From: SAR324 cluster bacterium
GTDB taxonomy: Bacteria; SAR324; NAC60-12
Direction of reading: 5' to 3'
DNA length: 44,118 nt
NCBI GenBank assembly: GCA_029245725.1
Contig: JAQWOT010000150.1
Coordinates: forward strand, 1-44,118
Shown here: piece after piece, positions 9,347-33,912 of the stretch
Position numbering within the stretch: position 1 is the first letter of the stretch
Layout of the letters: the number at the start of each line of letters is the position of its first letter
Made by a program: the position numbers and the translations under genes
The notes under the pieces: model-generated
Databases searched by the model: none
The model's input: the letters and a program-made list of their open reading frames with translations, nothing else
What the model was told of the DNA's origin: nothing

Positions 9347-10513
9347 TTAGTTCTTTGTTACCTTGTTTTCACTGAGCATTCCTGGGCCAAAAACTCCGAG
9401 GATCAAACAAAATACAACGATCAACCCCAAAGCACCTTGAAGCCCAATTAATTCAGCCAAAAATCCTATTATCGGTGGTCCTAACAAAAACCCACAGTAA
9501 CCCAAAGTCGCAACTCCGGCGATTCCAGTACCAGCAGAGACACCAGGAAGGCGGCTCGCCTCTCCAAACATGATCGGGACAATGTTTGCCAAACCGAATC
9601 CCAAGCAAGCAAAACCGAGCCATGCTGAAAAAGTTGTTCCCCAGAAAAGCCCAAGACCTAGTCCAAGTGCACCAAGTGCCGCTGTATACCTGACGAGTTG
9701 AACTCTACCCAGCTTAAGGATCACCCAATCACCGGTTAGTCTTCCGATCATCATTGTCATCGTAAAGATCGTGAAGGTAAGCGCAGCTTGGCTGGGGGAA
9801 GCACCAAGGACTGAGCTTGAATAGATTGCCGACCAGTCCACAGCAGTACCCTCCGAAACCATTCCTAGCAAACACAAAAGACCAAGCGAAAGCACTTTGC
9901 CAGAGGGTCTCACCAGTAATGGAGTTTTTTCACCCTTTTCCTCCTGTGGGGAGGGAATCATCGAGAAGGATGAAGCTCCAAGGATTATCGTCAAAATCAA
10001 AGATGAAAATGCTACGTGTTGGAGAGGTGTAAAATTCATAGTCAGGGCAACCGTTGCAGTCGCTCCTCCGGTCATTGCTCCCAGGCTCCAGAGTCCATGG
10101 AAGGATGACATGATGGGTTTCTCCAAGCCATTTTCAACCATCACAGCTTGAGCGTTCATTGCTACGTCCATGGTTCCAATCCCTGCTCCAGCAATGATCA
10201 GAACAAGGATGATTATCGTAATCTGATCCAACCAAAAAACTAAAGGAAGCAATAAAATAAGCAGGCACCCTCCCATAATCACCGGAAGACGGCTGCCGAA
10301 TGAGTGGATCACCCTCCCAGCAACAAGCATCATCGTGACTGCACCGATGGCATGACACAACAACATCAACCCCATTTCTGATTCAGTAAGCTGGAACTTA
10401 TTTTGAAGCCAAGGCAGGTGTGGTGCAATGGAGGCAAACCCCATCCCGTTTGTGAAGAAAATAAACGAAATAGCGAGGCGTGCCTTGCGGAAAGACACCG
10501 CAGAATTATTCAA
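9347..10513 (-). CDS. MFS transporter (YbjJ-like)
   Basis: This 388-residue integral membrane protein has about twelve hydrophobic segments. It starts ARLAISFIFFTNGMGFASIAPHLPWLQ and has the loop AGRVIHSFGSRLPV between segments 2 and 3, the major facilitator superfamily pattern. It resembles the uncharacterised YbjJ branch more than known sugar porters. The start is a TTG at 10513 with only a weak ribosome binding site, so the N-terminus is tentative, although the first segment begins right after it. It is the last gene of the minus-strand block, 117 bases after the FucA-like gene, and could export or import a sugar or intermediate. Confidence 0.82.
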   Translation of the reverse strand: MNNSAVSFRKARLAISFIFFTNGMGFASIAPHLPWLQNKFQLTESEMGLMLLCHAIGAVTMMLVAGRVIHSFGSRLPVIMGGCLLILLLPLVFWLDQITIIILVLIIAGAGIGTMDVAMNAQAVMVENGLEKPIMSSFHGLWSLGAMTGGATATVALTMNFTPLQHVAFSSLILTIILGASSFSMIPSPQEEKGEKTPLLVRPSGKVLSLGLLCLLGMVSEGTAVDWSAIYSSSVLGASPSQAALTFTIFTMTMMIGRLTGDWVILKLGRVQLVRYTAALGALGLGLGLFWGTTFSAWLGFACLGFGLANIVPIMFGEASRLPGVSAGTGIAGVATLGYCGFLLGPPIIGFLAELIGLQGALGLIVVFCLILGVFGPGMLSENKVTKN

Positions 10514-10556
10514 AGTTTCTTATGCTCTTGAGGGAGGAATGTAGAGAAGGATAAGC

Positions 10557-10607
10557 GCAACAAATTTTTTACGTAGTTCTGAATTCAAGAACAAATTTTT
10601 TTGTTGC
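10557..10607. promoter_or_regulatory. Nested dyad between FucA-like and MFS genes
   Basis: Outer arms GCAACAAA (10557-10564) and TTTGTTGC (10600-10607) are exact inverted copies. Inside them GTTCT (10576-10580) and AGAAC (10588-10592) flank a GAATTC palindrome. The nested dyad sits between the stop of the FucA-like gene and the start of the MFS gene. No typical terminator T-run follows on the minus strand, so an operator for the MFS gene is about as likely as a 3'-end structure. Confidence 0.35.
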
Positions 10608-10630
10608 ACTTACTACGGGGAGGGTGAAAA

Positions 10631-11290
10631 TTATTTTGGATCTTGCAGTCCGTAGGTTGAGAAACCTTTCATAGTTTCATCAATCTGAGCATCTGTCAGA
10701 ATGTTTGGTCCTCCAATCAACAGGCTGTGGTAGTACTGCTTCGAGATGGTTTCCAGTTCAACTGCCAGCCACATTGCTTTGTCCAACGAAGTTCCTGTTG
10801 CAATCATCCCATGATTCGCAAGTAAGCAGCAATTTCTGTCCTCCAAAGCCTCCAAAGCATATTGGGACAGCGCTTCTGTACCGTACCGGGCATACGGAGC
10901 ACAACGAATCGTTGGTCCTCCTGCAGCTGCAATCATGTAGTGGCAGGCTGGTATTCCCCGACCTGTGATTGCAATTGTGGTCGCATAGGTTGAGTGAGTG
11001 TGAACAACGCCATTCACTTGGGGGCGTGACTTGATGATGTCCAAGTGAAAACGCCATTCTGTAGAAGGCTTGAGTAGCCCTTCCCAACTTCCATATTCTC
11101 CCTCTAAGGGCATGGAAGTAATCATTTCTGGTTTCAATTGCTCGTAGGGAATCCCGCTTGGAGTGATCAACATCTGGTTCTTGTATCTAGCAGAGATATT
11201 CCCAGAAGTACCTTGGTTGAGTCCTGATGCGTTCATCCAAAGACACTTATCAATGATTGCTTGTCGTAATTCTTTCTCAGCCTTGGTCAT
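10631..11290 (-). CDS. Class II aldolase, L-fuculose-phosphate-aldolase-like
   Basis: This 219-residue protein resembles E. coli FucA along its whole length. The zinc ligands H97, H99 (VVHTHSTY) and H160 (LANHGM) and the acid E78 (STEWRFH) match FucA H92, H94, H155 and E73 with a constant offset of five. The phosphate-binding NQGTSGNIS (25-33), ITPSGIPYE and HYMIAAAGG blocks are also conserved. The expected reaction is aldol cleavage of a ketose 1-phosphate to DHAP and an aldehyde. Real substrates in this fold vary (fuculose, ribulose or methylthioribulose phosphates). It shares the minus-strand block with a second, fused class II aldolase. Confidence 0.88.
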   Translation of the reverse strand: MTKAEKELRQAIIDKCLWMNASGLNQGTSGNISARYKNQMLITPSGIPYEQLKPEMITSMPLEGEYGSWEGLLKPSTEWRFHLDIIKSRPQVNGVVHTHSTYATTIAITGRGIPACHYMIAAAGGPTIRCAPYARYGTEALSQYALEALEDRNCCLLANHGMIATGTSLDKAMWLAVELETISKQYYHSLLIGGPNILTDAQIDETMKGFSTYGLQDPK

Positions 11291-11386: not shown

Positions 11387-12184
11387 CTAAATTCTATTTT
11401 TCAACAGATGGTCAACTAGCTCAACAAATCCCGCTCCACTTTCTTGGCAGGTCACCCACGTTGGAGGGTGTCGAAGTTGATCTTTGAAATTTTGCACATT
11501 GGCAACGCCAACAGCATTTGGGAAGTACTGAAACATGGGTTCGTCATTCGGGCTATCACCAACATAAATAAACTTCTCTCGTTGTTCACTCAATTCGAAA
11601 CCCAATTTTGAACTAACAAACAACTGGCATGTCGAGAGCTTGTCATAATCCCCAAACCAACCGTTGACGTGAATTGATGAGATTTTGGCAACAGCACCTG
11701 CGACTTCAAATATTTTTTTAATCTTCAGTACTGATTCGTTTGGAAGAGGGACTACATCTTCACAAAAGTCAACAGCCAAATCTGCTTCCCGGTAGGCCTG
11801 ATCTGCACTGATTGCTGAACCAGAAACCTTTTGGAGAATTTCCTTTTCGAGTGTGGAAAGTTTTGTCTGGTCTTCGAGTCGTTGTGCCTCACTCCTTACA
11901 TAACATCTGCGCATCTTCGCAGCATTTCGATCGTAAGCAAAATAGAACGCGCCGTTTTCTCCCACAACTCCATCAACTGGCCAGAAGCGCGCAATCATAT
12001 CACACCAGCCAGCTGGTCTACCTGTGATGGGTATGGTGACTAAGCCAGCTTGTTGAAGCTTTTCAATGGCAAGGTATGCTGCTCCTTCTAAGCGGCCATC
12101 GGTGGTCACTGTGTCATCAATGTCGAAGAAAACTCCCCGAAGATTTTGACAAACTTCTGTTGGAATATGATTGATCAGGCGCAA
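11387..12184 (-). CDS. HAD superfamily phosphatase, Cof/sucrose-phosphatase-like (IIB)
   Basis: This 265-residue protein has the HAD motifs: nucleophile D21 and acid D23 (FFDIDDTV), motif II T54 (PITGRP), K182 in the GDYDKL segment, and D210/D214 (YVGDSPND). The large cap between motifs II and III fits type IIB sugar-phosphate phosphatases. The start is a TTG at 12184 with AGAGGA six bases upstream, lying inside the last codons of the preceding gene, so the two are probably translated together. The coupling suggests that it removes phosphate from a product of the glycerol-1-phosphate-dehydrogenase-like partner or a related sugar phosphate. No substrate can be read from the sequence. Confidence 0.82.
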   Translation of the reverse strand: MRLINHIPTEVCQNLRGVFFDIDDTVTTDGRLEGAAYLAIEKLQQAGLVTIPITGRPAGWCDMIARFWPVDGVVGENGAFYFAYDRNAAKMRRCYVRSEAQRLEDQTKLSTLEKEILQKVSGSAISADQAYREADLAVDFCEDVVPLPNESVLKIKKIFEVAGAVAKISSIHVNGWFGDYDKLSTCQLFVSSKLGFELSEQREKFIYVGDSPNDEPMFQYFPNAVGVANVQNFKDQLRHPPTWVTCQESGAGFVELVDHLLKNRI

Positions 12185-13497
12185 TTCATTTCCTCTGAGG
12201 CGAAATCTTCCAATAAGCCAGCATCAGCAGCGATGTCTAGGAAAGAGAAGCGGTTCCGCATCTCTCGGCAATGGACAATCGCATCGCGATATAGTTCAGC
12301 ATCTACTCCAAGCTCCTTATAGTTGACAGCCCCACCAGAGGACTTCAGCATCTCTTCCATTTCATCGACTGAAATCAAAAACGGCTGTACTTCTTCTTTC
12401 AGTTCTGTCCATATCTCCTGCAATCTCTCATTAGCCTGCTCCAAGAACGCACCTTCAAAAGACTTCTTGGAAAACTCATCTCTACATTGTTTGGCTATTT
12501 CTTTACCCATTCGCCTTTCCATATCCGGCAAATCAATGATGGTTTCCTTCAGCGTTGGTGGTTTATCGGAACTGAGTAACTGACTTTGAAGTCTGGCCAT
12601 CGTTAAAGAAGCAACTCCAACCTGTTGACCATGCAAGGTCCCTGGGTGTCGATCTCCAGCGAAGCAATCTATGTAATGAGAAATTTGGTGTTCGCCCATT
12701 GAGCCTGCATTGGAAACCCCAGAGAATGAAACACCCAAGCCCCCAAGTGTGAGCACTCGGTGTAGATACCCCGTAGCTTCAATATCACCTGTCGGTAATT
12801 GCCCGGCACGGGAATTCAGTTCAGGTTCATCTTTCTCTTGAATAATGTAGGGAGATTGGAGGTAGAGCGTTCCCAACAAACGGTGAGAAAGCCACCAGTC
12901 AACTTGGGCGACAGACCGACATAAACAATCTCCAAAACCAGAGGCTGCCAGGTAGGATGGTGCAGAAGCTGACACACTTAGATCGACAAAAAAACCAGCT
13001 GGTGCATGTGATGGTAATGAGATTTTCAGTCCCGAATCTAAACGCATTGAGGCTGTAGCAGAAGTGTAGCCATTCATTGAACCGGAGGTCGCAAAAACCG
13101 CATACCGCTGGCCATTCAGCATTGTTGAATGTTTACAAATGTCATTCACTGTTCCTGAACCACAAGCAACAACACCGTCAAATGAGCTCAATTTTGGCCT
13201 CAACTCCTCAACAAAACTAAGGTCAGCATGAGGATGATCAAGAATTATCACCTGCATTTCACCTGATGAACTGAAAGCGTTCTTTATTCTTTTTCCAAGA
13301 ACTTTGTAGGTAGTCCCATCACAGACGAGCAATAAATTTTTGCTCAAGCCAACTTGCTTGAGGAGTTCAACCTCTTGTCCTTCCAGGTTCTCTTTGATTA
13401 CGATCGATTCAAAAGGTACCGAAGCTAACTCCTGTGTCTCGGGATTCATCCATCTACCGTCAACCAGGTCGTCAATTAATTCTGTCCAGTTATCCAT
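12175..13497 (-). CDS. Glycerol-1-phosphate dehydrogenase-like protein (AraM/EgsA family)
   Basis: This 440-residue protein belongs to the iron-alcohol-dehydrogenase / dehydroquinate-synthase superfamily, in the branch of sn-glycerol-1-phosphate dehydrogenase and B. subtilis AraM. NAD-binding GSGTVND is at 113-119, followed by SGSMNGYTS (138-146). Metal ligands are likely D190 (GFGD), H270 (MGEHQISH) and H289 (LHGQQVG). Known members interconvert DHAP and sn-glycerol 1-phosphate with NAD(P)H. AraM is found in sugar operons, as here. Its last ten bases overlap the HAD phosphatase gene. An alternative is a dehydrogenase for a related phosphorylated polyol, given the surrounding kinases and aldolases. 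Confidence 0.82.
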   Translation of the reverse strand: MDNWTELIDDLVDGRWMNPETQELASVPFESIVIKENLEGQEVELLKQVGLSKNLLLVCDGTTYKVLGKRIKNAFSSSGEMQVIILDHPHADLSFVEELRPKLSSFDGVVACGSGTVNDICKHSTMLNGQRYAVFATSGSMNGYTSATASMRLDSGLKISLPSHAPAGFFVDLSVSASAPSYLAASGFGDCLCRSVAQVDWWLSHRLLGTLYLQSPYIIQEKDEPELNSRAGQLPTGDIEATGYLHRVLTLGGLGVSFSGVSNAGSMGEHQISHYIDCFAGDRHPGTLHGQQVGVASLTMARLQSQLLSSDKPPTLKETIIDLPDMERRMGKEIAKQCRDEFSKKSFEGAFLEQANERLQEIWTELKEEVQPFLISVDEMEEMLKSSGGAVNYKELGVDAELYRDAIVHCREMRNRFSFLDIAADAGLLEDFASEEMNCA

Positions 13498-13632: not shown

Positions 13633-15834
13633 TTAGCGAACAAATGCTTCATGGAGGCCTCCATCCACGTTCAGCAATTGTCCTGTTGTTCTGGAAAGTC
13701 GCTCTGAGGCCATTAAAAACAGAGCTTCTGCCTGATGATCAGCGGAAATTTCTGTTTTCAGCAGAGTCCGCTGCGCATAAAAAGTTGCCAGACGATTTCT
13801 CAAAGCTTCTGTATCTTCTTCTTCGTTGAACGGTAATTGATACTTCGCAAGAGAAGATAAAACTCGGTCCCTGGGGAACATACTGCTACCGGCGACTACA
13901 GTTGCTGGAGCCAAGGCATTCACACGTACAAATGGAGCTAGTTGAATGGCTAATTCCCGCACAAGATGATTCAGGGCAGCTTTGGAACTGTCATAAGCCA
14001 AGCTTCCGACTTTACTAACAGTCGCATTTACTGAAGAAGTTAGGATCAGATTTGCGGGAAGCTCCTGTCTTATCCAAACTTGGTGTGCCTCCTCTGCAAC
14101 CATTGCAGGACCAATCACATTGACATCATAGGTCTGACGCCATTGGCTATCGGAAATTCGACCAGAGTCATCCGGAGGAAAGAAAATTCCAGCAGTGACG
14201 ATGAGTGTATCCATTCCGCCATAGGCCATGAGGACATCATCAAACAAGTTACGAACACTTTCTCTATCAGTCATATTTGCTGTTCGGGCGAGGGTGGGGC
14301 CACATGAACTCAAGCCAGTCCCAGAGACTCCAATTCCCAAACCAACTTTCTGTACCAATTCATCTGCGGTTCTTGCCGAACTGGAGGAGTCGAAGTCAGC
14401 ACAAACTACATGTGCACCTTCTTTGAGGAGTCGATGGCAGGTAGCTTTTCCAATTCCAGAGCCTGCCCCTATAACAACAGCCACCTGTCTGGACATTTCC
14501 TGTTCTGGGGGCATTCGTCTAAGTTTAGCTTCTTCCAAAAGCCAATACTCGATATCAAAAGCCTCTTGCTGATCAATTGCTACATACTCATCCACAGCCT
14601 CTGCACCGCGCATAACCTCAAGTGCACAATTGTAGAATTCCGCGGTGACGCGGCTCTCACTTTTGTTTTTACCCCAGGCGATCATGCCAAGGCCGGGAAT
14701 TAGTACAATACTTGGGTTGGTATTTCTTATGGCAGGCGAATCGTTACGCTTACATCGATCATAATAAGAAGTGTAATCCTCACGATATTTCTCCAGACCT
14801 ATTTTAATCAAACTCTTCAGTTGATCTAAATTCTGGTTGTGAGGATCCCATGGAACATACATTGGCTTAATTTTGGTTCTCAGAAAATGATCTGGGCAAC
14901 TAGTTCCAAGCTCTGCCAAGCGAACTACGTCCTTGGAATTGACGAAGTAGCGCATCATGTCATCATCCTGAACTGTGGCAATCAATCGTTTATCTGAAGC
15001 TACCTGTCCACGCAACCAAGGGAGAATTTCCACAATTGCTGTTCTTCGCTGCTCTTGCGAGAGATCGGGATATTGATTTCCCCCAAATGTGAGTTCCCCT
15101 TTGTCGTGCTTTGAGAGATAGGCATCAGCTTTTTGAATAATCTCTACTGTCCATTCATAACATTCCTGATCACTATCTGCCCAATTGATTACTCCATGGC
15201 CCCCAAGAAGAACTCCCCTCGCCTTTGGATGATCCTCGCAAATTTTCTGAAGTTGTAATCCAAGATCAAAACCTGGCCTTTGCCAAGGGAACCATATCAA
15301 ATCTTCACCCCAAATTTCTTTTGTCAGATCTTGGGACCTTTTGGACGCTGCAATTGAGATTACTGAATTGGGATGCATGTGATCCACATGCTTGTGTGGT
15401 ATGAAAGCATGCAGGGGTGTATCAATGGAGGCCGCACGGGAGTTAAGATTGAAAGTACAGTGGGGGTACATCCCCACCATCTCATCTTCAATATTAGTCT
15501 TATAACCTTTCACAGGTGCGGATTTATATTTTGGGATGAGATTAAGTAGTTTCTGTTGATATAGAGAAGAGAAATTTTCACGCTTCGATGTGCGTAGATC
15601 GCCTCCGGAACCCTTTACCCACAACACTTCTGTTTGCTGACCAGTAAGAGGATCGATTTCGAGAATCTTCGCAGAGGTATTCCCTCCCCCAGTATTTGTA
15701 ATACGTTGATCTGATCCAAGTAGATTAGAGCGATAGATAAGTTTACTAACCAGATCGAGTGAATCAGCGTAAGATTCGTCCCAGTTAGGGTATGAGCGGT
15801 CCAGTGCCTTAGGATATTTCATGGTGTTATCCAA
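13633..15834 (-). CDS. Bifunctional class II aldolase / short-chain dehydrogenase (RhaD-type fusion)
   Basis: This 733-residue fusion has an N-terminal class II aldolase domain (1 to about 430) and a C-terminal Rossmann short-chain dehydrogenase (about 448-733). In the aldolase part, TNTGGGNTSAK lies at about 46-56 and metal histidines at H152, H154 and H213. In the dehydrogenase part, GAGSGIG is at 456-462 and the catalytic set is N572, S601, Y614 and K618. This matches bacterial rhamnulose-1-phosphate aldolase / lactaldehyde dehydrogenase fusions, which cleave the sugar phosphate to DHAP and lactaldehyde and then oxidise the aldehyde. Both active sites look intact. The sugar may be rhamnose-like but could be another deoxy or short ketose. 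Confidence 0.88.
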   Translation of the reverse strand: MDNTMKYPKALDRSYPNWDESYADSLDLVSKLIYRSNLLGSDQRITNTGGGNTSAKILEIDPLTGQQTEVLWVKGSGGDLRTSKRENFSSLYQQKLLNLIPKYKSAPVKGYKTNIEDEMVGMYPHCTFNLNSRAASIDTPLHAFIPHKHVDHMHPNSVISIAASKRSQDLTKEIWGEDLIWFPWQRPGFDLGLQLQKICEDHPKARGVLLGGHGVINWADSDQECYEWTVEIIQKADAYLSKHDKGELTFGGNQYPDLSQEQRRTAIVEILPWLRGQVASDKRLIATVQDDDMMRYFVNSKDVVRLAELGTSCPDHFLRTKIKPMYVPWDPHNQNLDQLKSLIKIGLEKYREDYTSYYDRCKRNDSPAIRNTNPSIVLIPGLGMIAWGKNKSESRVTAEFYNCALEVMRGAEAVDEYVAIDQQEAFDIEYWLLEEAKLRRMPPEQEMSRQVAVVIGAGSGIGKATCHRLLKEGAHVVCADFDSSSSARTADELVQKVGLGIGVSGTGLSSCGPTLARTANMTDRESVRNLFDDVLMAYGGMDTLIVTAGIFFPPDDSGRISDSQWRQTYDVNVIGPAMVAEEAHQVWIRQELPANLILTSSVNATVSKVGSLAYDSSKAALNHLVRELAIQLAPFVRVNALAPATVVAGSSMFPRDRVLSSLAKYQLPFNEEEDTEALRNRLATFYAQRTLLKTEISADHQAEALFLMASERLSRTTGQLLNVDGGLHEAFVR

Positions 15835-16009
15835 TAAATTTTGTAAAAAAATATTGATTCTGATCTGGTATATTTACAGCAATCTTTTTTTAATTAGTAT
15901 TCAGAAATTTTGAAGCAAAGGAGGCAGATTGAAATGACAACAAAAACTGGATTAAATTTATTAAAGTAGATTTAAGTTCACAGCCAAATCAAAATTAGAA
16001 TGAAATTAT
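15835..16009. other. AT-rich spacer with a tiny SD-led frame on the plus strand
   Basis: The spacer separates the fusion aldolase from the DUF2160-like gene. The promoter of the aldolase, if separate, would be here. On the plus strand a perfect AAAGGAGG (15918-15925) precedes an 11-codon frame, MTTKTGLNLLK, at 15935-15970. Nothing on the plus strand follows until 19920, so it has no obvious leader-peptide role. Confidence 0.3.
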
Positions 16010-16186
16010 TTAACCTCTGATTATAATGTAAATTCCAAGTATAAAACCCAAAGTCATCGAAACTTCAATAGCAGCAAGTTCCTCTACAAATCGCATCCAA
16101 AGAAATTGAATTCCAATAAAAGTGATGACAGCGATAAACAGCCTATCAAACCAGTTATTTTTTATAGGGAGAAACCCTTTTTTCAT
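16010..16186 (-). CDS. Small DUF2160-like membrane protein of an ABC uptake operon
   Basis: This 58-residue protein begins MKKGFLPIKNNWFDRLFIAVI and has two hydrophobic stretches (about 16-31 and 44-56) ending in IIIRG. The KKGFLPI...DRLFI block and the two-helix layout resemble the C-terminal half of DUF2160 proteins, which sit beside the permease genes of glycerol-type ABC transporters (the GlpSTPQV family). The start lies three bases after the stop of the second permease gene, so it is almost certainly co-translated. DUF2160 proteins are usually longer; this is a short form. The function is unknown; a role as an accessory subunit of the permease is an inference. The match is from memory of family sequences. 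Confidence 0.6.
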   Translation of the reverse strand: MKKGFLPIKNNWFDRLFIAVITFIGIQFLWMRFVEELAAIEVSMTLGFILGIYIIIRG

Positions 16187-16189
16187 AAG

Positions 16190-17038
16190 TTATCCTTTCA
16201 CTGCCCCGAAGGTTAAACCAGATACGATATGACGCTGCACAAGACTAATAAAGACCAAAGCAGGGAGCATTGAAACAAAACCTACTGCAGCCATGGCACC
16301 CCAATTCGTACCAGTAGTGGTGACAAACTCAGCCAGCCCTGTAGGTATTGTGCGGGCATATACACTAGTCAAGGTTGCAGCCAATAAGTATTCATTCCAG
16401 GCAAAAATCCAGCTCAATAATGCTGTAATTGCAATTCCTGGTGCTGCTTGGGGAATAATGATTCTAAATATGATTGTAAAATAATTACCACCATCGATTA
16501 AAACAGCCTCATCTAATTCTCTTGGTATTCCGTCAAATATACCTTTCAGTAACCAGATAGCAAAAGGGAGATTGAAAACACAATAAAGTAGAATCAATCC
16601 TAATTTTGTATCAAATAAACTCACATCATCATAACGAAAAACAATAGAGAACAGCAGAAAAAGAGGTAGCAGGAAAGCGGCAGGAGGTGCCATCCTATTT
16701 GTCATCGTCCAGAAGAAAATATTCTCTGAGGCTGCCAACTTCCATCTCGATAGTGCATATGTCGCCATAATGGCTAGAATGGTAACCAGTATAGCATTAC
16801 AAGATGCAACTATGATTGAGTTCCACAAGTATTCTGCATAGACTCCATCAACAAAAGGCTTTGTGAAATTTTTCCAATAAATTTTTTCAAAAAAAGTTGG
16901 TGAAAAATCTGGTTTTCCAAATAGTTCAACAGGACTTCTAGTTGAAACAACGAACATCCAATAAATTGGAATTATCGTAATCATCGAAAGAATGCTCCAA
17001 ATGATAAATTTTACTAACTTTTTCAAATTTTTAATCAT
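16190..17038 (-). CDS. Carbohydrate ABC transporter permease, MalG type
   Basis: This 282-residue inner-membrane permease has about six hydrophobic segments. The coupling loop [15 protein letters not shown]...IIIPQAAPG (about 181-211) is the EAA motif of MalG-like permeases, and the C-terminus [17 protein letters not shown] is the family ending. It overlaps its partner permease gene by 8 bases and is followed after three bases by the small DUF2160-like gene. No ATPase gene is present in this minus-strand set. The gene order receptor, MalF type, MalG type, small DUF2160 protein mirrors glycerol-type uptake operons. Confidence 0.88.
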
Positions 17039-17906: not shown

Positions 17907-17938
17907 GATTTAGTGAGTTTACATTGTTTGTTTTAAAT

Positions 17939-17961
17939 GGGGCTGATTGGTAATCAGCCCC
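17939..17961 (-). other. Strong intercistronic stem-loop after a binding-protein gene
   Basis: GGGGCTGATT and AATCAGCCCC form a perfect 10-bp stem with a 3-base loop, eight bases past the receptor stop codon and 33 bases before the permease start. The minus strand after it reads ATTTAAAAC, not a T-run. It is best explained as an mRNA-stabilising or partial attenuation structure that keeps receptor levels above those of the permeases. Confidence 0.65.
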
Positions 17962-17968
17962 AGAAAAG

Positions 17969-22468: not shown

Positions 22469-22505
22469 ATTCCTATGTCCCAAAACCACTTCGTGGAGAT
22501 TAATT

Positions 22506-24970: not shown

Positions 24971-24979
24971 GAGTCGAAA

Positions 24980-26928: not shown

Positions 26929-26958
26929 AAATTTTATTCCATTTAGTTGGAGATTTTC

Positions 26959-28089
26959 GTGCCTGAAGTCCAGTTGAGTCTGAACTCCGTTGACAAGACT
27001 TATTACAGTAAGAAGATTGAGGCAGCAGTTCGAGCTGTGAAAAATCTTTCACTACAGATTAGCAAAGGTGAAATCGTTGCCCTCCTAGGTTCATCTGGAT
27101 GTGGGAAGACATCAACATTGCGAATGATTGCAGGATTCGAGGATGTTACAGGGGGAACAATTGAACTCTCTAATCGTGAAATCCACCAGTTGCCACCTGC
27201 TAAACGAAACGTAGCAATGGCGTTTGAGGGTTACTCTTTATACCCTCCACTGACTGTGAGAGACAACATAGCTTTCGCCCTTAAAGCCGAGCGTATCTCG
27301 CGGTTAGAATCAGATGCTAAGGTCATGGAGATGGCGAAATTTCTAGAGATCGAAGAAATTTTGGAAAGATACCCCTCCTCGATTTCTGCAGGCCAGCAAC
27401 AGCGCGCTAGTCTGGCCAGAGCTTTGGTTCGTAAAGCAGATTTGTATCTACTGGATGAACCTATGGGGCAACTCGAACCACAGCTTCGTTCAGTTTTGCG
27501 GGTTCGTCTGAAGCAGTACCTACAAGCACATCAGATGACTACCGTACTCGTTACTCATGATCAAACCGAGGCTAATGCCCTTGCTGACCGCATTGCTGTA
27601 ATGGAAGATGGCGAACTGCAACAGTTTGAAACACCAACAAAGCTCAAGCATAGGCCCGCGAACATTTATGTTGGAACTTTCATCGGGGAACCACCGATGA
27701 ACACATTTGCCGCTGAGGTGAATCCGGTCGGTAAGGGTTTTCAGTTTCAATTGGAAGAGACAGGGGAACTCCTTGATTATCAAGCTGTTGATTTTCAGCA
27801 GAATTTGCGTGACCAATTGATTCAACATAAAAGAGTCATGCTCGGTCTTAGACCACATGCTGTCAAATTGGGAAAGGGAGCTTTGAAGGCACAGGTAATT
27901 TCCAATCAATGGCTTGGAGACCAATCACACATTGCAGCAGAATTTGCAAATAGGATCATAGTTGCCGTTTCTCACCAAAGAGAAGAATTCCAATTGGATG
28001 AGAATGTTCCTTTTCACCTGGAGGCTTCAGATCTTCACTTCTTTAATGCAGAAAACGGAAACACTATAGCCCACAGTCTGGAGATGTAA
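26959..28089 (+). CDS. ABC ATP-binding protein, second NBD, altered Q-loop
   Basis: This is the partner ATPase, 376 residues from a GTG at 26959 that has GGAG six bases upstream (a TTG at 26947 overlaps that site). Walker A is GSSGCGKT (44-51), Walker B LLDE with E167 and the switch histidine H200 are intact. The Q-loop glutamine is replaced by E90 (AFEGYSLYPPLT), the signature is ISAGQ (142-146) and the D-loop reads GQLEP. The C-terminal part from about 235 is a TOBE-type domain. With the preceding protein it would form one degenerate and one more competent ATP site. It is followed after 2 bases by an FGGY kinase gene. Confidence 0.87.
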   Translation: MPEVQLSLNSVDKTYYSKKIEAAVRAVKNLSLQISKGEIVALLGSSGCGKTSTLRMIAGFEDVTGGTIELSNREIHQLPPAKRNVAMAFEGYSLYPPLTVRDNIAFALKAERISRLESDAKVMEMAKFLEIEEILERYPSSISAGQQQRASLARALVRKADLYLLDEPMGQLEPQLRSVLRVRLKQYLQAHQMTTVLVTHDQTEANALADRIAVMEDGELQQFETPTKLKHRPANIYVGTFIGEPPMNTFAAEVNPVGKGFQFQLEETGELLDYQAVDFQQNLRDQLIQHKRVMLGLRPHAVKLGKGALKAQVISNQWLGDQSHIAAEFANRIIVAVSHQREEFQLDENVPFHLEASDLHFFNAENGNTIAHSLEM

Positions 28090-28091
28090 TT

Positions 28092-29624
28092 ATGGATCTT
28101 CTTCTGGGAATTGACGCAGGTACTTCTGTGATTAAGGTTGTTGCCTTTGATCTAAAGGGTAATCAAATTGCGGTAGCAGCCAAAGCAAATCACTATGAAA
28201 TGCTCTCAAACGGAGGGGTTGAGCAGGAACTTGATCGAACTTGGAAAGACACCCTTGAAGTCATTCGCCAGATCCTAGAAAAACTAGATGGGCATCAAAT
28301 CGTTGGTATTGCAGTAACAGGTCAGGGTTCTGGAACTTGGTTAATTGATGAGAATGGAAGCCCTGTTGGACGAGGTTGGTTATGGCTAGATGCAAGGGCT
28401 GCAGACCTGGTCGAGAGCTACAGTGAGTCCTCCAACGCTAGAAGACGTTTTGAGTTGACAGGTACTGGGCTAGCTGCCTGTGATCAGGGGCCTCAATTAC
28501 TGTGGATAAAAAAACACCAACCAGAGATTCTTCAAGAGAGCACGACAGTATTCCATTGCAAGGATTGGCTTTATTTTAATCTGACTGGTGTCAGAGCTAC
28601 CGATCCCTCAGAGAGCGTCTTCAGTTGTGGCAATTTTCGAAATCGAGATTTTTCCGATGAAGTCATCGAACTGCTGGGACTGACTGAACAGAAAGCTTTG
28701 TTTCCCAACGTAGTTGACGGAACCAAAAACTCCCACCCACTTTCAGAAAATGTAGCTAAACTTTGCGGTCTGCAATCCGGTATCCCAGTTGTGTTGGGAT
28801 ATGTAGATGTAATCTGTACAGCTCTTGGCTCTGGCCTCTACGACCCAGGCTATCAAACAGGATGTACGATCATCGGTTCAACTGGTATGCACATGCGCTA
28901 TGTTGATTCCGTAGATGAGATCAAACTCAATCAGGATTCAACCGGCTACACGATGGTTTTTCCTGTTGACGGGACTTACAGTCAAATGCAGTCGAACATG
29001 GCTGCGACGCTCAACATTGATTGGATGTTGGACCTCGCAATTGATGTTTTGAAATTTCAGGGCATTCAAAAAAATCGCTCGGATCTTCTCAAAGATTTGG
29101 ATCAACACATCCTTGATGCCTCTCCGGCAGAATTTCTTTACCATCCCTACATATCACAAGCTGGTGAAAGAGGACCTTTTATCAATGCGAACGCAAGAGC
29201 CAGCTTCATTGGACTTTCATCGAAGCACGGCTATTTTGATATGTTGCGAGGGGTCTATGAAGGACTTTCTTTCGCAGCAAGGGACTGTTACGAGGCAGCA
29301 GGGGGAGTACCCGCCGAAGTTAGACTCTCAGGCGGGGCCGCTCGCAGCAAAGCCCTAAGAAAGATCATGGGATCAGTCTTGAAGACTCGTTTTCGTACAG
29401 CTGAAAGAGGAGAAGCAGGTGCTTCAGGTGTAGCAATGATGGCTGCAGTATGTTTAGGAATTTACCCTGACATGGCCGCATGCGTAAGAGATTGGGTTCA
29501 TCCATATCTGAGCGAAGCTGAAGAATATGATGCCTCACAAGGGCAAATTTATGATTCACTTTATCCTATTTACGTTGAAGCACGCCAAGCTTATCTTCCG
29601 CTTTGGAAATCATTAAAAAATTAA
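28092..29624 (+). CDS. FGGY carbohydrate kinase, second of three
   Basis: This 510-residue FGGY kinase has LLLGIDAGTSVIKVVAFD (about 3-20) as the N-terminal phosphate loop, VTGQGSGTWLID, WLWLDARAADLV, a GYVDVICTALGSG segment with the likely catalytic aspartate, and RLSGGAARSKALRKIMGSVL as the C-terminal motif. It is closer to the carbohydrate/polyol kinase branch than to glycerol kinase. The gene starts 2 bases after the ATPase gene, so transport and phosphorylation are probably coupled in expression. The substrate is not readable from sequence. Confidence 0.87.
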   Translation: MDLLLGIDAGTSVIKVVAFDLKGNQIAVAAKANHYEMLSNGGVEQELDRTWKDTLEVIRQILEKLDGHQIVGIAVTGQGSGTWLIDENGSPVGRGWLWLDARAADLVESYSESSNARRRFELTGTGLAACDQGPQLLWIKKHQPEILQESTTVFHCKDWLYFNLTGVRATDPSESVFSCGNFRNRDFSDEVIELLGLTEQKALFPNVVDGTKNSHPLSENVAKLCGLQSGIPVVLGYVDVICTALGSGLYDPGYQTGCTIIGSTGMHMRYVDSVDEIKLNQDSTGYTMVFPVDGTYSQMQSNMAATLNIDWMLDLAIDVLKFQGIQKNRSDLLKDLDQHILDASPAEFLYHPYISQAGERGPFINANARASFIGLSSKHGYFDMLRGVYEGLSFAARDCYEAAGGVPAEVRLSGGAARSKALRKIMGSVLKTRFRTAERGEAGASGVAMMAAVCLGIYPDMAACVRDWVHPYLSEAEEYDASQGQIYDSLYPIYVEARQAYLPLWKSLKN

Positions 29625-29634: not shown

Positions 29635-30678
29635 TTGGAACCAAAAAAAATTGCCATCATCGGTGATCGGTTCATGAAGACAGAAATCTTTAGGGAACAC
29701 CTCGAAAAAACTTGTGGAAACAATCATCTTTTTAAGGAACTTGAGTTGCCTTGGCCCGATGAGCCGATGGAGCACGGTTACGAAAAACCAGGAATGGCAG
29801 GCCTTAAAGAATATATGGGTAATCCCGATGAAATCGTCAGCTTCATTGGTGATTCGGAAATTGTTGTGGACCATCTTGCTCCTTTCTCAGCAGAGATGTT
29901 TGACAGATTGAAGACCCTTCGTCTCATTGCTGTCTCACGTGGGGGTCCAGTAAATATTGATATGGAAGCCGCTCACAAGTCCAACGTCAAAGTGGTCAAT
30001 GTTCCAGGCAGGAATGCGAGCGCTGTTGCAGAGTTCACGATTGGTGCAATCTTAGCCGAAACAAGGCTGATCCGCTTGGGCCATGAATCTCTTAGAAAAG
30101 GAACCTGGCGCGGTGATCTTTATCGGGCTGACGTCACTGGCAGAGAACTCTCACAGATGACCGTTGGATTGATTGGCTATGGTCATATCGGAACAAAGGT
30201 TGTGAAACTTCTTCAGCCCTTTGGATGCCAAATCCTGGTCTGTGATCCATATGTCGAGTTGAGTTCGGACGACAAAGAGAATGGTGTGCAACAGGTCGAT
30301 TTAGATACTTTACTTAAGAAATCGGATGTCATCAGTTTGCACTCGAGAGTGACAAAGGAAACAACTGGTTTCATCAATCGAGAAGTATTCCAGAAGATGA
30401 AGAAAGATGCTTACTTCATCAACACAGCTCGTGGACCGATGGTGGATTACCAGGCTTTAACTGATGCACTCACCAGCGGTCATCTCCGGGGAGCTATGCT
30501 AGAAACTTTTGGAGTAGAGCCAGTTCCTCTAGATTGGCCATTGCTAAAACTTGATAACGTAACACTGACACCTCATATCGCTGGCGCTTCCCTACGGACA
30601 GTAGAGTATGCCGCTGAACAGGCTGCACAAGAAGTTCAACGGTTTCTTTCCGGTGAATCCCCTCTAAATCCTTGTTAA
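29635..30678 (+). CDS. D-2-hydroxyacid dehydrogenase (SerA-like)
   Basis: This 347-residue NAD-dependent dehydrogenase starts at a TTG at 29635, which has an ideal AAGGAG six bases upstream. The dinucleotide motif is canonical (GYGHIG, 181-186). The catalytic residues are R266 (NTARGPMVD), E295 (FGVEPVP) and H314 (TPHIAGAS). It resembles phosphoglycerate and hydroxypyruvate dehydrogenases. In this operon it may act on an acid intermediate of sugar breakdown, such as glycerate or a tetronate. Unlike the family protein at 6465-7397, its nucleotide loop is intact, so the two are not recent copies. Confidence 0.87.
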   Translation: MEPKKIAIIGDRFMKTEIFREHLEKTCGNNHLFKELELPWPDEPMEHGYEKPGMAGLKEYMGNPDEIVSFIGDSEIVVDHLAPFSAEMFDRLKTLRLIAVSRGGPVNIDMEAAHKSNVKVVNVPGRNASAVAEFTIGAILAETRLIRLGHESLRKGTWRGDLYRADVTGRELSQMTVGLIGYGHIGTKVVKLLQPFGCQILVCDPYVELSSDDKENGVQQVDLDTLLKKSDVISLHSRVTKETTGFINREVFQKMKKDAYFINTARGPMVDYQALTDALTSGHLRGAMLETFGVEPVPLDWPLLKLDNVTLTPHIAGASLRTVEYAAEQAAQEVQRFLSGESPLNPC

Positions 30679-30705: not shown

Positions 30706-31755
30706 ATGAATGATTCAACATTTAATTTTTCAAAAAGTTTAGAATTTCAGCAATTTTGTGAACTCTCCGCTGAGATCGGAAGAAATCCATTATTGGTACA
30801 GGGAGCAGGAGGAAATACATCTATTAAAGAAGACGGACTACTTTGGGTGAAAGCATCCGGGACCTGGTTATCAGAAGCGACAGAAAAAAAGACCATGGTT
30901 GCTGTAGATCTTGTCAAGTTACAGCAAGCAATGGCGCAGAATGACGAGCGGGTGGAAAAGCCTCAATATTTTAAAGCAGACCCCACAGAATCCCTTCGTC
31001 CATCAATTGAGACGGTAGTTCACGCCTCATTAAATCACCGGGTTGTGCTCCATGTTCACTGTGTGGAAACAATCTCTTGGGCTGTCCTTGAAAATGCTGA
31101 AAAGCTCTTAGTTACTCCCTTGGAAGGCCTCGACTGGGTTTTCATTCCTTACAGAAGGCCCGGATTACCACTGGCTCGTGAGATACAATCAAAGATCACG
31201 GAGAAGACGAATGTTTTGATTCTTGGAAATCATGGGCTGGTCGTAGCTGCCGATTCAATTAAAGAGGCGCATGCCCTTTTGTTGGAAGTACACCAAAGGC
31301 TTAGGCGCGCTAGAAGAGAAGTTACCATTCCAAAGTCTAATTTTGCTCTTCCAGCAGAATCCAACTATCGAGATGCTGAATTCTTTGCCCAAGGAATAGC
31401 CCACGACAATATTTCTCTGGAAAAGGTAGAAAAGGGTTCGCTTTACCCTGATCACGTCATTTTTCTGGGCTCAGGTGTACAACTTCTGAATTCGAGTTCA
31501 ACTCTAGACCAGTTTGAGCAGAATCAACATGAAAGCCTTCCCAAAGCCTTGATCGTCCCTGATCAAACCGTGTTGGTAAACAAGCAAGCCCCTCGTGGCA
31601 CCGATGAAATGTTATTGTCTCTGACAGAAGTTGCAGCTCGGTTACAACCCAACGATAGAGTTCAAAAATTGACTTTCAATGATGAAGCAGCACTTCTGAA
31701 TTGGGATGCTGAGAAGTATCGACAGGAACTGGCTCGACGAAATGCCTCGGCTTGA
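30706..31755 (+). CDS. Class II aldolase family protein, RhaD-like without dehydrogenase domain
   Basis: This 349-residue protein matches the aldolase half of the RhaD-type fusion but lacks a dehydrogenase domain. Phosphate-binding VQGAGGNTSIK is at 31-41, LWVKASGTWL at 46-55, the probable acid is E102 (RPSIETVVH), and metal histidines are H116, H118 (LHVHCV) and H176 (GNHGL). It is expected to cleave a ketose phosphate to DHAP and an aldehyde, or act as an epimerase. The C-terminal third (about 230-349) has no recognised domain. With FucA-like and fused forms on the other strand, it is the third class II aldolase of the locus. Confidence 0.82.
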   Translation: MNDSTFNFSKSLEFQQFCELSAEIGRNPLLVQGAGGNTSIKEDGLLWVKASGTWLSEATEKKTMVAVDLVKLQQAMAQNDERVEKPQYFKADPTESLRPSIETVVHASLNHRVVLHVHCVETISWAVLENAEKLLVTPLEGLDWVFIPYRRPGLPLAREIQSKITEKTNVLILGNHGLVVAADSIKEAHALLLEVHQRLRRARREVTIPKSNFALPAESNYRDAEFFAQGIAHDNISLEKVEKGSLYPDHVIFLGSGVQLLNSSSTLDQFEQNQHESLPKALIVPDQTVLVNKQAPRGTDEMLLSLTEVAARLQPNDRVQKLTFNDEAALLNWDAEKYRQELARRNASA

Positions 31756-31779
31756 TCTCATTCAACAAATCTAACTTAG

Positions 31780-33066
31780 ATGACATTCTCACAAGAATCT
31801 GTCCTGGTCCTCGGAATTGACATCGGCACTTCAGGAGTGCGAGCAGTTTTGATGAATTCAACATTTGATGTGGTGGCTCAACGTTCCAGCCTTATGTCAG
31901 ATTTCGGTTCTAATCACCGAAACCCTACTGTTTGGTGGAAGTCCTTGGAATCTGCTCTAGAGCACTTGCGGATAGAAGCACATGAACAATGGAGTCAGGT
32001 TGCTGGAATATCTGTCGATGGGACATCTGGGACGATGTTGGCGCTCAACAATAAGCTGGAACCCATTGGCGATGCTCTGATGTATAACGACCCCGTCAAA
32101 GATCCTGATGTTCTTGAGCAGATTCGTCAGTATGCTCCAAGGGAAAGTGCTGCACATGGTGCCACTTCTGGATTGGCAAAGTTGATGAAGCTTCAAGAAC
32201 TTAATGGATGTCACCGAGTGCTTCACCAAGCGGACTGGGTACTTGGAAAATTTATTGGCGAATACCGATGGAGTGATGAGAACAACTCTTTAAAAACAGG
32301 GTATGATCCCATCCATAGAGAATGGCCAAATTGGATCTCCCACACAAAAGCGCAGCGTGAGTTACTTCCAGATCCACAAGAACCTGGTCAAGTCACGGGT
32401 GAGATTGACCAAAAGATTGCGGAACGCTTTGGGCTTTCGAAAGACCTCAAAATCATTTCAGGGACTACGGATGGTTGTGCTGCTTTCTTAGCAACAGGTG
32501 CATCCGAAATTGGGGATGGAGTCACTTCACTTGGTTCGACTTTAGTTGTGAAAATTCTAAGTGATCAACCAGTGTTTGCACCTGAATATGGCATCTACAG
32601 TCATCGAATTGGGGATCAGTGGTTACCCGGTGGAGCCTCAAATACGGGTGGCAACGTGCTCACTCATTTTTTTTCAGATGAGGAACTACTTAAACTTTCC
32701 AAAAATATTGACCCTGAGACAACAGTTGATCTTGATTACTATCCCTTGCTTAAACCCGGAGAGAGATTTCCAATCAATGATCCCACCTTCCCACCCCGCT
32801 TAGAGCCAAGGCATCCCAATGACCAAACTTTCCTCCATGGTCTGTTATTAGGAATGAGCGCAGTGGAAGCGTTGGCCTACAATTGTTTAAATGAACTAGG
32901 AGGCCCAGTCTTGAAGTCACTTCGTACAGTTGGAGGTGGTTCAAAGAATTCCGTTTGGACGGCTCTTCGCCAAAAACAAATCCCCATTCCAATGCGGAAT
33001 GTTGCCTCTGATCAAGCTGCTGCAGGAGCCGCTCGACTTGCCTTGAAGGGCTTACTTAGTATCTAA
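31780..33066 (+). CDS. FGGY carbohydrate kinase, third of three (D-ribulokinase-like)
   Basis: This 428-residue FGGY kinase is shorter than the other two. Its features (LGIDIGTSGVRAVLM at about 11-25, SVDGTSGTMLAL, DALMYND, SGTTDGCAAFLATGA and VGGGSKNSVW) resemble the cyanobacterial and plant D-ribulose/xylulose kinase group (SePSK and XK-1, about 425 residues). A D-ribulose-like ketose is therefore a reasonable candidate substrate, though unproven. The gene ends 3 bases before the HAD-IIA gene. Three FGGY kinases in one operon imply either several substrates or successive phosphorylation steps. Confidence 0.85.
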   Translation: MTFSQESVLVLGIDIGTSGVRAVLMNSTFDVVAQRSSLMSDFGSNHRNPTVWWKSLESALEHLRIEAHEQWSQVAGISVDGTSGTMLALNNKLEPIGDALMYNDPVKDPDVLEQIRQYAPRESAAHGATSGLAKLMKLQELNGCHRVLHQADWVLGKFIGEYRWSDENNSLKTGYDPIHREWPNWISHTKAQRELLPDPQEPGQVTGEIDQKIAERFGLSKDLKIISGTTDGCAAFLATGASEIGDGVTSLGSTLVVKILSDQPVFAPEYGIYSHRIGDQWLPGGASNTGGNVLTHFFSDEELLKLSKNIDPETTVDLDYYPLLKPGERFPINDPTFPPRLEPRHPNDQTFLHGLLLGMSAVEALAYNCLNELGGPVLKSLRTVGGGSKNSVWTALRQKQIPIPMRNVASDQAAAGAARLALKGLLSI

Positions 33067-33069
33067 GCC

Positions 33070-33912
33070 ATGCTGAATATCCCCTTCACCCAACTCGAAG
33101 AGCTTTCCCACAGATATGAAACCTTCCTGCTGGATCAATATGGAGTGCTACACGATGGCAAATCTGTTTTTAAAGGAGTCATCGAAGCTCTTCAGAACCT
33201 CCAAGCAGCTCAAAAAACAGTAATTCTTCTCTCCAATTCAGCGAAAAGAGCGGAGAAAAATTATCAGCGCATGGAACAGCTAGGGCTACATAGAGAGTTC
33301 TTTCAGGGTGTCGTTACTTCTGGGGAGGTAGGACACTATCTATTTACCAGAGGATTGTCTGAGCTTGGGCTCGAAGATGGATCAAGATGTTGGGTGTTAG
33401 CTCGAGATGAAGACCGATCTCCTCTTTTAGGTTCAACGCTCACGGAAGTAGCTGCTCCGGAAGATGCAGACGTGTTGATTCTAAGTGGTAGTCGTGGAGA
33501 GGTAGAATCTTGGGAGAAAGCCATCAAGAAATTGGAGATTCCTCTGTCCAAAAATCTACCATGTGTTTGCCTGAATCCTGACAAGTGGATGCTCACGCCA
33601 CAAGGTCTAGCCTATGGAGCTGGCAAAATTGCAGAATACTACGAATCAGCAGGTGGTAAAGTCATCTGGATCGGTAAGCCGTACAAGGAAATGTATAGAT
33701 TTGCTGAGAGAGAGTATTCGTTTGAAAAGATGCAAGCTGTCGCCATAGGGGATTCAATCGAGCACGATATCCAGGGTGCAAAAAAATTTGGAATTGCTGG
33801 AGCCTGGGTACGTGATGGAATTCTGAGGGATGCAGCTGATCAGGAAATCAACGCTGAGATTCAAAAACATGAAGCCCAGCCTGATTTCCAGATGAATAGT
33901 TTTAGTTGGTAA
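33070..33912 (+). CDS. HAD-IIA hydrolase (TIGR01459/NagD-like)
   Basis: This 280-residue HAD protein has nucleophile D22 (LLDQYGVLHDG), motif II S235-N236 type LLSNSAKRA at about 54-62, a large IIA cap and motif IV IGDSIEHDIQGA (about 227-238). The usual acid two residues after the nucleophile is Y24 instead of Asp, as in the related group that reads DVWGV. Phosphatase activity may therefore be weak or of altered type. As the last gene of the operon it may dephosphorylate a dead-end sugar phosphate. A 211-bp spacer without genes follows before the convergent flavoprotein gene. Confidence 0.82.
   Translation: MLNIPFTQLEELSHRYETFLLDQYGVLHDGKSVFKGVIEALQNLQAAQKTVILLSNSAKRAEKNYQRMEQLGLHREFFQGVVTSGEVGHYLFTRGLSELGLEDGSRCWVLARDEDRSPLLGSTLTEVAAPEDADVLILSGSRGEVESWEKAIKKLEIPLSKNLPCVCLNPDKWMLTPQGLAYGAGKIAEYYESAGGKVIWIGKPYKEMYRFAEREYSFEKMQAVAIGDSIEHDIQGAKKFGIAGAWVRDGILRDAADQEINAEIQKHEAQPDFQMNSFSW

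Follow-up and report, generated by a model that had tools for sequence, protein, structure and literature searches.

What does a divergent catabolic locus with three FGGY kinases and three class II aldolase domains break down in a SAR324 cluster bacterium, and is its pathway new? The locus lies at positions 9,347 to 33,912 of the 44,118-nucleotide stretch analysed here (the window: contig JAQWOT010000150.1 of assembly GCA_029245725.1, forward strand). An initial annotation had held that it matches no known operon, the erythritol operon included, and had proposed an undescribed joint pathway. We find instead that the right arm corresponds, gene by gene and in order, to the erythritol–adonitol–L-arabitol locus of the Sinorhizobium fredii NGR234/Sinorhizobium meliloti type. 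On balance we favour a composite polyol-catabolism locus, in which a Sinorhizobium-type pentitol/tetritol set stands behind the regulator and kinase of a second module. This second module, called module A, comprises a SorC-type regulator, the kinase FGGY1, an AraM-like dehydrogenase, a HAD-IIB phosphatase and a FucA-like aldolase, and would supply an FGGY1–AraM–FucA route. Sequence comparison supports both the right-arm homology and the merger of two modules well; what is new is at most module A and its merger with a known locus, the right arm being of a type already known. The ‘unknown pathway’ can now be recognised as that of a polyol locus, with the FGGY1–AraM–FucA–HAD-IIB module as the unexplained remainder.

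A Sinorhizobium-type polyol set in the right arm

The NGR234 stretch (L220) holds 16 genes in the order SorC-type regulator, SBPR (the MptA-like solute-binding protein), the permeases TMDc and TMDd, the ATPases NBD1 and NBD2, FGGY2, SerA, GlpD, RhaD-like, FGGY3, HAD-IIA, EryC, DeoR, TpiB and RpiB, with no FucA match in that stretch. S. meliloti Ak57 (L051) carries the same set plus FucA, 17 genes in all, with TMDd and HAD-IIA each matching in two frames. The published account of these loci (PMC3599248) describes NGR234 as carrying the whole Sinorhizobium gene set minus fucA1. All five genes of the MptABCDE-type importer of the window match those of NGR234 with their order kept (Table 1). FGGY2, 57% identical to the NGR234 gene, lies above the 46% cut-off used for EryA in PMC3599248, and aligns with the annotated EryA of Marinovum algicola at 47% identity over 509 amino acids (464 bits). 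The SerA-like, RhaD-like, FGGY3 and HAD-IIA proteins reach 67, 45, 53 and 39% to NGR234, beside cut-offs of 50, 49, 51 and 40% that were set for S. meliloti queries of RbtA, LalA, RbtB and RbtC, so that two lie above and two just below; we assigned these four names from gene order and from the ‘lalA, rbtB, rbtC suboperon’ of the same paper. The ery gene names of M. algicola are those of the deposited annotation, and EryH and EryI are our names for its triosephosphate isomerase and RpiB; the isomerase, TpiB and RpiB of the Ak57 locus are 68, 69 and 61% identical to M. algicola EryC, EryH and EryI.

Parts of the known locus are missing. None of eryD, eryB, eryC, eryR, tpiB and rpiB was found beside the right-arm genes of the window, and the regulator there is 28–30% identical to EryD-type regulators (29% to the NGR234 regulator and to M. 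algicola EryD; EryD cut-off, 44%). EryC gave no match in the window genome (G000) or its five congeners (G001–G005) in a genome search that detected the positive control, G063. No relative of EryB/GlpD was found at an E value of 1e-5 in the 99%-complete draft G000, which leaves AraM as the sole glycerol-phosphate-type dehydrogenase seen in the locus; the same search gave at least one match in all five congeners, that of G004 being very weak.

Right-arm genes keep similar company elsewhere. Among the best 80 of 541 RhaD-like relatives, taken best first so that the tallies are not an unbiased sample, 63 loci span at least 19 kb; 49 of them contain FGGY2 and SerA, 5 are rhamnose operons, 7 stand beside a ribose-type ATP-binding cassette (ABC) set and 2 are of other kinds. 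FGGY3 is present in 35 of the 49, HAD-IIA in 34 and GlpD in 48, and both FGGY3 and HAD-IIA occur in all 14 loci of the other three classes. The 14 FGGY2–SerA loci that lack FGGY3 come from Mesorhizobium (13), where lalA and rbtBC are reported at an independent locus (PMC3599248), and from Taklimakanibacter (1), whose FGGY3 and HAD-IIA lie elsewhere (L179). L-rhamnose operons in Aminobacter, Mesorhizobium and Aquamicrobium (L052, L118, L126, L131, L135, L137) likewise contain the RhaD-like/FGGY3/HAD-IIA trio, even though breaking down rhamnose should require no D-ribulose-type kinase.

By alignment, FGGY3 belongs with the D-ribulose kinase SePSK. Its alignments with SePSK and AtXK-1 run end to end (304–310 bits to 5htn/5htr), and it keeps all of the SePSK positions D8, T11, S72, K163 and D221, read against PMC4880283, a paper that ties these residues to activity or to the binding of D-ribulose and in which AtXK-1 itself showed little response to that sugar. 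No relative of FGGY3 was found in a scan of viral contigs. In the RhaD-like aldolase, E102, H116, H118 and H176, which we take to be catalytic and zinc residues, are invariant in eight sequences (alignment A1).

The best PDB matches of both binding proteins are polyol binders, at low scores: 5iai (63 bits, left), a structure with ribitol (PMC8468352), and 4rya (74 bits, right), called a D-mannitol/hexitol-binding protein (PMC12718374). The hexitol ligand, together with three kinases, three aldolase domains and two importers, would suit a larger or branched compound, such as a polyol glycoside or deoxy-hexitol that is split into fragments for both arms. So would the fusion of rhamnulose-1-phosphate aldolase with a short-chain dehydrogenase (RhaD-SDR) in the left arm, as such fusions normally make L-lactaldehyde. 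However, the scanned locus genes include no glycosidase family and the right-arm set is that of free polyols, and we consider such a compound improbable. A plain rhamnose, fucose, xylose or glycerol operon was rejected, as the scanned genes include neither an isomerase nor RhaSTPQ; of a rhamnose (rha) operon, the RhaD-SDR is present, but RhaI isomerase and a RhaSTPQ-type ABC set were not found among them. Apiose, threonate/erythronate and autoinducer-2 (AI-2) pathways were considered and set aside on background knowledge.

Module A and its accessories

In rhizobia and Acidiphilium, a SorC–FGGY1 pair diverges from an AraM–HAD-IIB pair, often together with GlpD, an SDR, a UgpC ATPase and another RhaD-SDR. 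Relative to these modules, the window proteins are 48–50% (SorC), 49–52% (FGGY1), 57–61% (AraM) and 54–57% (HAD-IIB) identical, the SorC range being that to the AraM-adjoining regulator in L053–L055. The window FucA is 64% identical to the FucA of the S. meliloti Ak57 locus (L051).

In the window, the second importer and the RhaD-SDR stand between AraM and SorC. Congener G002 has neither there: AraM is directly divergent from SorC (L062), and a GlpD/EryB-type gene, 62% identical to M. algicola EryB, lies between its SerA-like and RhaD-like genes. G003 reads SorC–FGGY1–FGGY2–SerA–RhaD-like (L032), with no right importer in between. G001 reads DUF2160, a RhaD-SDR remnant and AraM; the remnant (L060, ~512–760) consists of a 27-amino-acid match near the start of the gene, with the gene end shortly after, as read from the DNA. 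These layouts indicate a stable core around which importers and RhaD-SDR are gained and lost. The RhaD-SDR, which the initial annotation had made part of the neighbourhood signature, was accordingly rejected as a core gene. Comparison of the layouts identifies AraM, HAD-IIB and FucA, with a major facilitator superfamily (MFS) permease, as the module A core of the left arm, and the second polyol-type importer and RhaD-SDR as its accessories. The locus as a whole is no chance assembly, since its genes are 86–99% identical in the congeners where assembled (only matches over 80% were listed) and gene order is kept across phyla.

Relatives of the left binding protein, 56–62% identical among the 25 best plasmid matches, stand beside ADH/SDR dehydrogenases in three of the four loci read (L189–L192), in all of which DUF2160-annotated genes occupy the matching position after two permeases. 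A Mesorhizobium locus (L134) places relatives of the left importer (binding protein 61%, permeases 56%) and a UgpC-type ATPase beside the RhaD-like/FGGY3/HAD-IIA trio, a second left–right link.

The best PDB match of the window FucA is Escherichia coli FucA (1fua, 208 bits), and that of AraM is a glycerol-1-phosphate dehydrogenase (G1PDH; 9h4x, 103 bits). The GFGD, GEHQISH and LHGQQVG segments of AraM, which contain D/H/H positions that are presumably metal ligands in G1PDHs, align with 9h4x and 4rgq. AraM could on this basis recycle sn-glycerol-1-phosphate (G1P) from archaeal lipids, with glycerol-phosphate compounds imported, dihydroxyacetone phosphate (DHAP) made and the kinases and phosphatases contributing side activities; G1P uptake by marine bacteria has been reported (PMC12718374). 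The polyol binders matched by the binding proteins argue against this, as do the occurrence of the AraM clade in root-nodule and sludge bacteria and its ties to an FGGY kinase and often FucA, neither of which G1P would need. We give this explanation little credence. AraM loci often carry a GpsA-like and sometimes a GlpD-like dehydrogenase (L171, L176, L177, L178, L179, L182–L185, L197, L215), so that one cluster combines relatives of enzymes for both glycerol-phosphate enantiomers.

Linkage of module A to right-arm genes

We submitted 50 of 76 non-congener loci to an AraM search that covered 49 RhaD-like-bearing genomes; all counts refer to the fetched stretches, some of which were ended by contig ends. 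AraM was found at an E value of 1e-20 in 15 of the 49 genomes, in 19 loci (the ‘handles’ set). In 17 of the 19 loci, AraM has within 5 kb an FGGY kinase whose best match is FGGY1; HAD-IIB is within 100 bp of AraM in nine, and FGGY3 shares the fetched stretch with AraM in three (L178, L179, L215). A second sample covered 385 genomes from the class to which the L073 genome belongs, 15 of which yielded 17 loci: FGGY1 is within 2 kb of AraM in 6, FucA within the stretch in 4 and a RhaD-like gene within 12 kb in 3 (L193, L194 and L197, the last seen in extension L216). By our own arithmetic, one randomly placed RhaD-like gene per 4-Mb genome would yield about 0.1 such cases in 17. L185 belongs to both samples, and the loci do not include G067:C19, a fragment in G071:C331 or a 30% match in G098:C40; the ‘FGGY1’ neighbour in L186–L188, L196 and L208 is just 26–30% identical. 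FucA-type aldolases are found close to AraM (within 2 kb) in L182, L186, L187, L193, L194 and L208, and at a distance of 6–13 kb in L055, L178, L179 and L216.

Outside the window genus, AraM/FGGY1 and lalA/rbtB/rbtC-type genes meet in one cluster in six loci (L193+L209, L194, L178, L179, L138/L215 and L197+L216). The fullest view comes from G134 (L193, L209), which reads on one side HAD-IIA, FGGY3, RhaD-like, UgpC, SDR, a solute-binding protein, two permeases, FucA and AraM, and on the other SorC, FGGY1, a second SorC of EryD type, SBPR, TMDc, TMDd, NBD1, NBD2, FGGY2, SerA and GlpD. Neither HAD-IIB nor RhaD-SDR was seen in these two stretches, and the layout is otherwise nearly that of the window, which looks like a later state of a G134-like locus, without EryD and EryB. 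Rhizobia with separate modules, G134 and the window genus suggest steps of operon merging, from two modules, to both side by side with their own regulators, to one regulator.

The arms might nevertheless be two independent pathways that were merged without a common substrate, the right serving pentitols and the left a rhamnose-like deoxy sugar or a glycerol-type compound. The initial annotation had reasoned that unrelated genomic partners of kinases and aldolases in relatives would speak against one pathway, and the relatives go half of that way. FGGY3 was not found in the fetched stretch around AraM in 16 of the 19 loci of the ‘handles’ set (12 of the 15 genomes with both), and in S. meliloti Ak57 module A lies ~620 kb from the ery/rbt locus. 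In addition, the left-arm RhaD-SDR passes the cut-off for rhamnulose-1-phosphate aldolase, the genome carries a second copy, on G000:C133 (L037), with which it shares 82% identity, and relatives of the left ABC set occur in clusters of their own. The recurrence of the linkage in six other genomes, the SorC–FGGY1 pair ahead of eryA-type genes in both G134 and the window genus, and the dispensability of RhaD-SDR all argue the other way, making independent pathways rather unlikely in our view.

A shared control region

We compared 15 control regions: the window gap, the G002 gap and the gaps of 13 loci in which SorC lies within 400 bp of AraM, with BLAST match ends as region ends, so that some coding bases are included. 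TGTCAA or its complement is present in all 15. The half-sites TGTCA/TGACA total 60; in 2,000 shuffles their number averages 5.7 and never exceeds 17. They are enriched singly in 13 of the 15 regions (fraction of shuffles reaching the count, ≤0.0085). These words are good candidates for a shared putative operator cluster, with support that stops short of proof because several of the rhizobial control regions are mutually related and because TTGACA is also the −35 hexamer consensus. Promoter and terminator scans gave counts of 28 (shuffle mean, 30.9) and 19 (16.7), neither above shuffles.

Proposed pathway

The linkage in six loci and the shared operator-like words make it plausible that both arms serve one polyol-type substrate. 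That part of the joint pathway proposed earlier is supported, and its novelty is lost for the right arm. The substrate is probably a pentitol. A pentitol (ribitol, an arabitol) or similar polyol would enter through either importer, the left one relying on the two right-arm ATPases, and the EryA-like FGGY2 would feed the known branch. FGGY1 would phosphorylate a terminal hydroxyl to give a polyol-1-phosphate, which AraM would oxidise at C2 to a ketose-1-phosphate, the substrate type of FucA; relatives of AraM act on C2 of sn-glycerol-1-phosphate. FucA would then split the ketose-1-phosphate into DHAP and an aldehyde (glycolaldehyde in the case of a pentulose-1-phosphate), and the RhaD-SDR fusion may take a deoxy variant and oxidise the aldehyde. 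For module A we infer this chemistry from family logic, in that AraM-type oxidation should yield a ketose-1-phosphate of the kind cleaved by FucA. Free pentulose would be handled by the LalA-, RbtB- and RbtC-type proteins, with RbtC removing the C1 phosphate, the SePSK-like RbtB phosphorylating D-ribulose for the pentose phosphate pathway and LalA acting as an alternative aldolase. SorC, released by a phosphorylated intermediate, would control both arms from the shared gap.

More tentatively, the combination of an AraM/G1PDH-family enzyme with an FGGY kinase and FucA may constitute an undescribed route from polyol through polyol-1-phosphate and ketose-1-phosphate to DHAP and aldehyde, which would make sense of fucA1 and would have merged more than once with the EryA/RbtABC route. 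If the chemistry proposed above holds, ‘sn-glycerol-1-phosphate dehydrogenase’ annotations in such operons would be wrong in substrate, and fucA1, regarded as a gene being lost, would gain a role.

Beyond the separate placement of the modules in most genomes and the −35-like word, several observations weigh against the composite reading. The control regions of L056 and L181 are not enriched in half-sites. The six linked loci cannot be counted as six separate merger events: the AraM tree pairs L193 with L194 and L178 with L179 as sisters and also groups L215 with L197, though weakly, and L194 holds just RhaD-like of the right-arm genes. Rhizobial module A shows no FucA beside AraM, with GlpD, SDR and another RhaD-SDR there instead, and S. 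meliloti fucA1 is reported in PMC3599248 to be unneeded for erythritol, adonitol and L-arabitol. Should oxidation of the EryA product depend on EryB, its branch has no proven oxidase here, as EryB is absent. Finally, AraM stands just ~100 bits from the nearest solved G1PDH, and the substrates of FGGY1 and of the AraM clade are putative.

Distribution and probable origin

The window genus is known from draft genomes (G000: 99.3% complete, 2.3% contamination, 407 contigs), and congener gene order was pieced together from separate contigs. Across 58 genomes, the window's own included, RhaD-like matches of 88–95% occur in four of the five congeners (G002–G005, that of G003 cut by a contig end), followed by 41% in G035; weaker matches in other genomes (25–35%) are mostly in frames of 650–760 amino acids, as expected for RhaD-SDR fusions. 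Full AraM matches of 86–93% occur in three congeners (G001, G002, G005), the next best among the 58 genomes being 30–31%. Among the proteins with matches over 80%, FucA has the highest identity, 97.7–98.6% in three congeners. G001 and G002 hold RhaD-SDR relatives of 84% beside rhamnose-type ABC genes.

A midpoint-rooted FastTree phylogeny of AraM places the window genus inside the module A clade of Alphaproteobacteria (values at successive nodes 0.978, 0.985, 0.959 and 0.974), the pairing of the genus with Acidiphilium being supported at just 0.563. Relatives from its own class (L063–L066) and a 28% relative in congener G003 (L067) fall far outside that clade. This nesting, together with patchy presence in the searched genomes, supports horizontal transfer, and the locus was probably acquired from Alphaproteobacteria.

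Layout of the locus and neighbouring genes

The two operons do diverge from a single 526-bp gap, as first annotated, and the kinases, aldolase domains, G1PDH-like AraM, SerA-like protein and two HAD phosphatases named there are all open frames in place (Table 1). The list had left out the MFS permease that ends the left arm and the SorC/DeoR-type regulator that heads the right one; of the two ABC import sets it named, both are present, the left as a binding protein and two permeases without an ATPase, both ATPases of the locus lying in the right set. The left arm (minus strand) runs binding protein, two permeases, DUF2160, RhaD-SDR, AraM-like, HAD-IIB, FucA-like and MFS; the right arm (plus strand) runs SorC-type, FGGY1, binding protein, two permeases, two ATPases, FGGY2, SerA-like, RhaD-like, FGGY3 and HAD-IIA, with gaps of 2–101 bp from FGGY1 onward. 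FGGY_C has three matches in the window, all above cut-off, and Aldolase_II domains lie in the FucA-like frame, the RhaD-like frame and the N-terminal part of the fusion.

Table 1. Features of the divergent locus in window coordinates (percentages are identities to the S. fredii NGR234 genes).
Feature	Position	Strand	Evidence or remark
MFS permease	9347–10513	−	Last left-arm gene; PF07690, 81 bits; adjoins FucA in G001, G002, G005
FucA/FucA1-like class II aldolase (ketose-1-phosphate aldolase family)	10631–11290	−	PF00596, 180 bits
HAD-IIB phosphatase	11387–12184	−	TIGR01484, 57.5 bits (cut-off 41.8)
AraM-like dehydrogenase (Fe-ADH_2, glycerol-1-phosphate dehydrogenase family)	12175–13497	−	PF13685, 112 bits
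RhaD-SDR fusion	13633–15834	−	TIGR02632, 956 bits (cut-off 568)
DUF2160 small membrane protein, 58 amino acids	16010–16186	−	Marginal: 27.7 bits (cut-off 28)
CUT1 permease, MalG-like	16190–17038	−	Profile match
CUT1 permease, UgpA-like	17031–17906	−	Profile match
Solute-binding protein of left ABC set	17969–19393	−	Profile match; best PDB 5iai, 63 bits
Divergent control region	19394–19919	.	Exactly 526 bp; TGTCAA at 19782, 19789, 19809, 19843
SorC/LsrR/DeoR-type regulator, module A type, not EryD	19920–20879	+	Heads right arm; PF04198, 209 bits
FGGY1 kinase (module A)	20901–22385	+	FGGY profile match
MptA-like solute-binding protein (SBPR)	22440–23945	+	72%; best PDB 4rya, 74 bits
Two permeases (TMDc, TMDd) of MptABCDE-like importer	24047–25837	+	72% and 79%
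Two ATPases (NBD1, NBD2) of MptABCDE-like importer	25840–28089	+	53% and 58%
FGGY2 kinase, EryA-like	28092–29624	+	57%
SerA-like 2-hydroxyacid dehydrogenase family protein (RbtA by gene order)	29635–30678	+	67%
Free RhaD-like class II aldolase (LalA by gene order)	30706–31755	+	45%
FGGY3 kinase, SePSK/AtXK-1 clade (RbtB by gene order)	31780–33066	+	53%
HAD-IIA phosphatase (RbtC by gene order)	33070–33912	+	TIGR01459, 208 bits (cut-off 104); 39%

Between the right binding protein and the first permease (23988–24011), a 10-pair hairpin is followed by AATTTTAACT; hairpins are often found after binding-protein genes. The left permease stretch (16001–18000) has a GC content of 0.37, against 0.41–0.46 in the other 2-kb windows of the locus. 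Next to the left arm, on the plus strand at 588–9328, lie genes for a PhyH dioxygenase, an NMT1/TauA-type ABC importer, a glutamine-synthetase-like enzyme, a DHDPS-family enzyme, a 2-hydroxyacid dehydrogenase, a mandelate-racemase-family enzyme and a GntR/FCD regulator, relatives of which flank the MFS–FucA end in G005 and, partly, in G002. Downstream of the right arm, a gene of the N-methyl-tryptophan/sarcosine oxidase family (34124–35326, minus strand) is followed by a branched-chain-amino-acid-type ABC set, in an order identical to that in G004.

Comparison with known systems

The closest described system is the S. meliloti/S. fredii NGR234 locus (PMC3599248), with which the window shares an MptABCDE-type importer and EryA-, RbtA-, LalA-, RbtB- and RbtC-type genes in order, as well as a FucA1 homologue. 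It differs in that another SorC regulator replaces EryD, EryB is absent (congener G002 has an EryB-type gene), EryC was not found in the genome and the locus genes include none of EryR, TpiB and RpiB; FucA is a left-arm gene, and FGGY1, AraM, HAD-IIB, a second importer and RhaD-SDR are extra. Group 3 polyol loci of the same paper (Bradyrhizobium BTAi1/ORS278, Acidiphilium, Verminephrobacter) likewise combine MptABCDE with LalA–RbtABC and lack EryC, EryR and TpiB; unlike them, the window lacks EryB and EryD, called ubiquitous in the data set of PMC3599248, in the excerpts of which we met no mention of the AraM–FGGY1 module.

The rhizobial and Acidiphilium module A, of which our literature searches found no published description, resembles the window in its divergent layout with operator-like words and in its SorC, FGGY1, AraM and HAD-IIB homologues, and differs in having its own importer, SDR and ATPase and often GlpD or GpsA. 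FGGY3 matches the SePSK/AtXK-1 kinases in end-to-end alignment and in the residues named above, whereas its operon context, with an aldolase and HAD-IIA, sets it apart. The AraM/G1PDH of the Bacillus subtilis ara operon is likewise an Fe-ADH_2 family enzyme within a sugar operon; unlike it, the AraM of the window is tied to an FGGY kinase and FucA.

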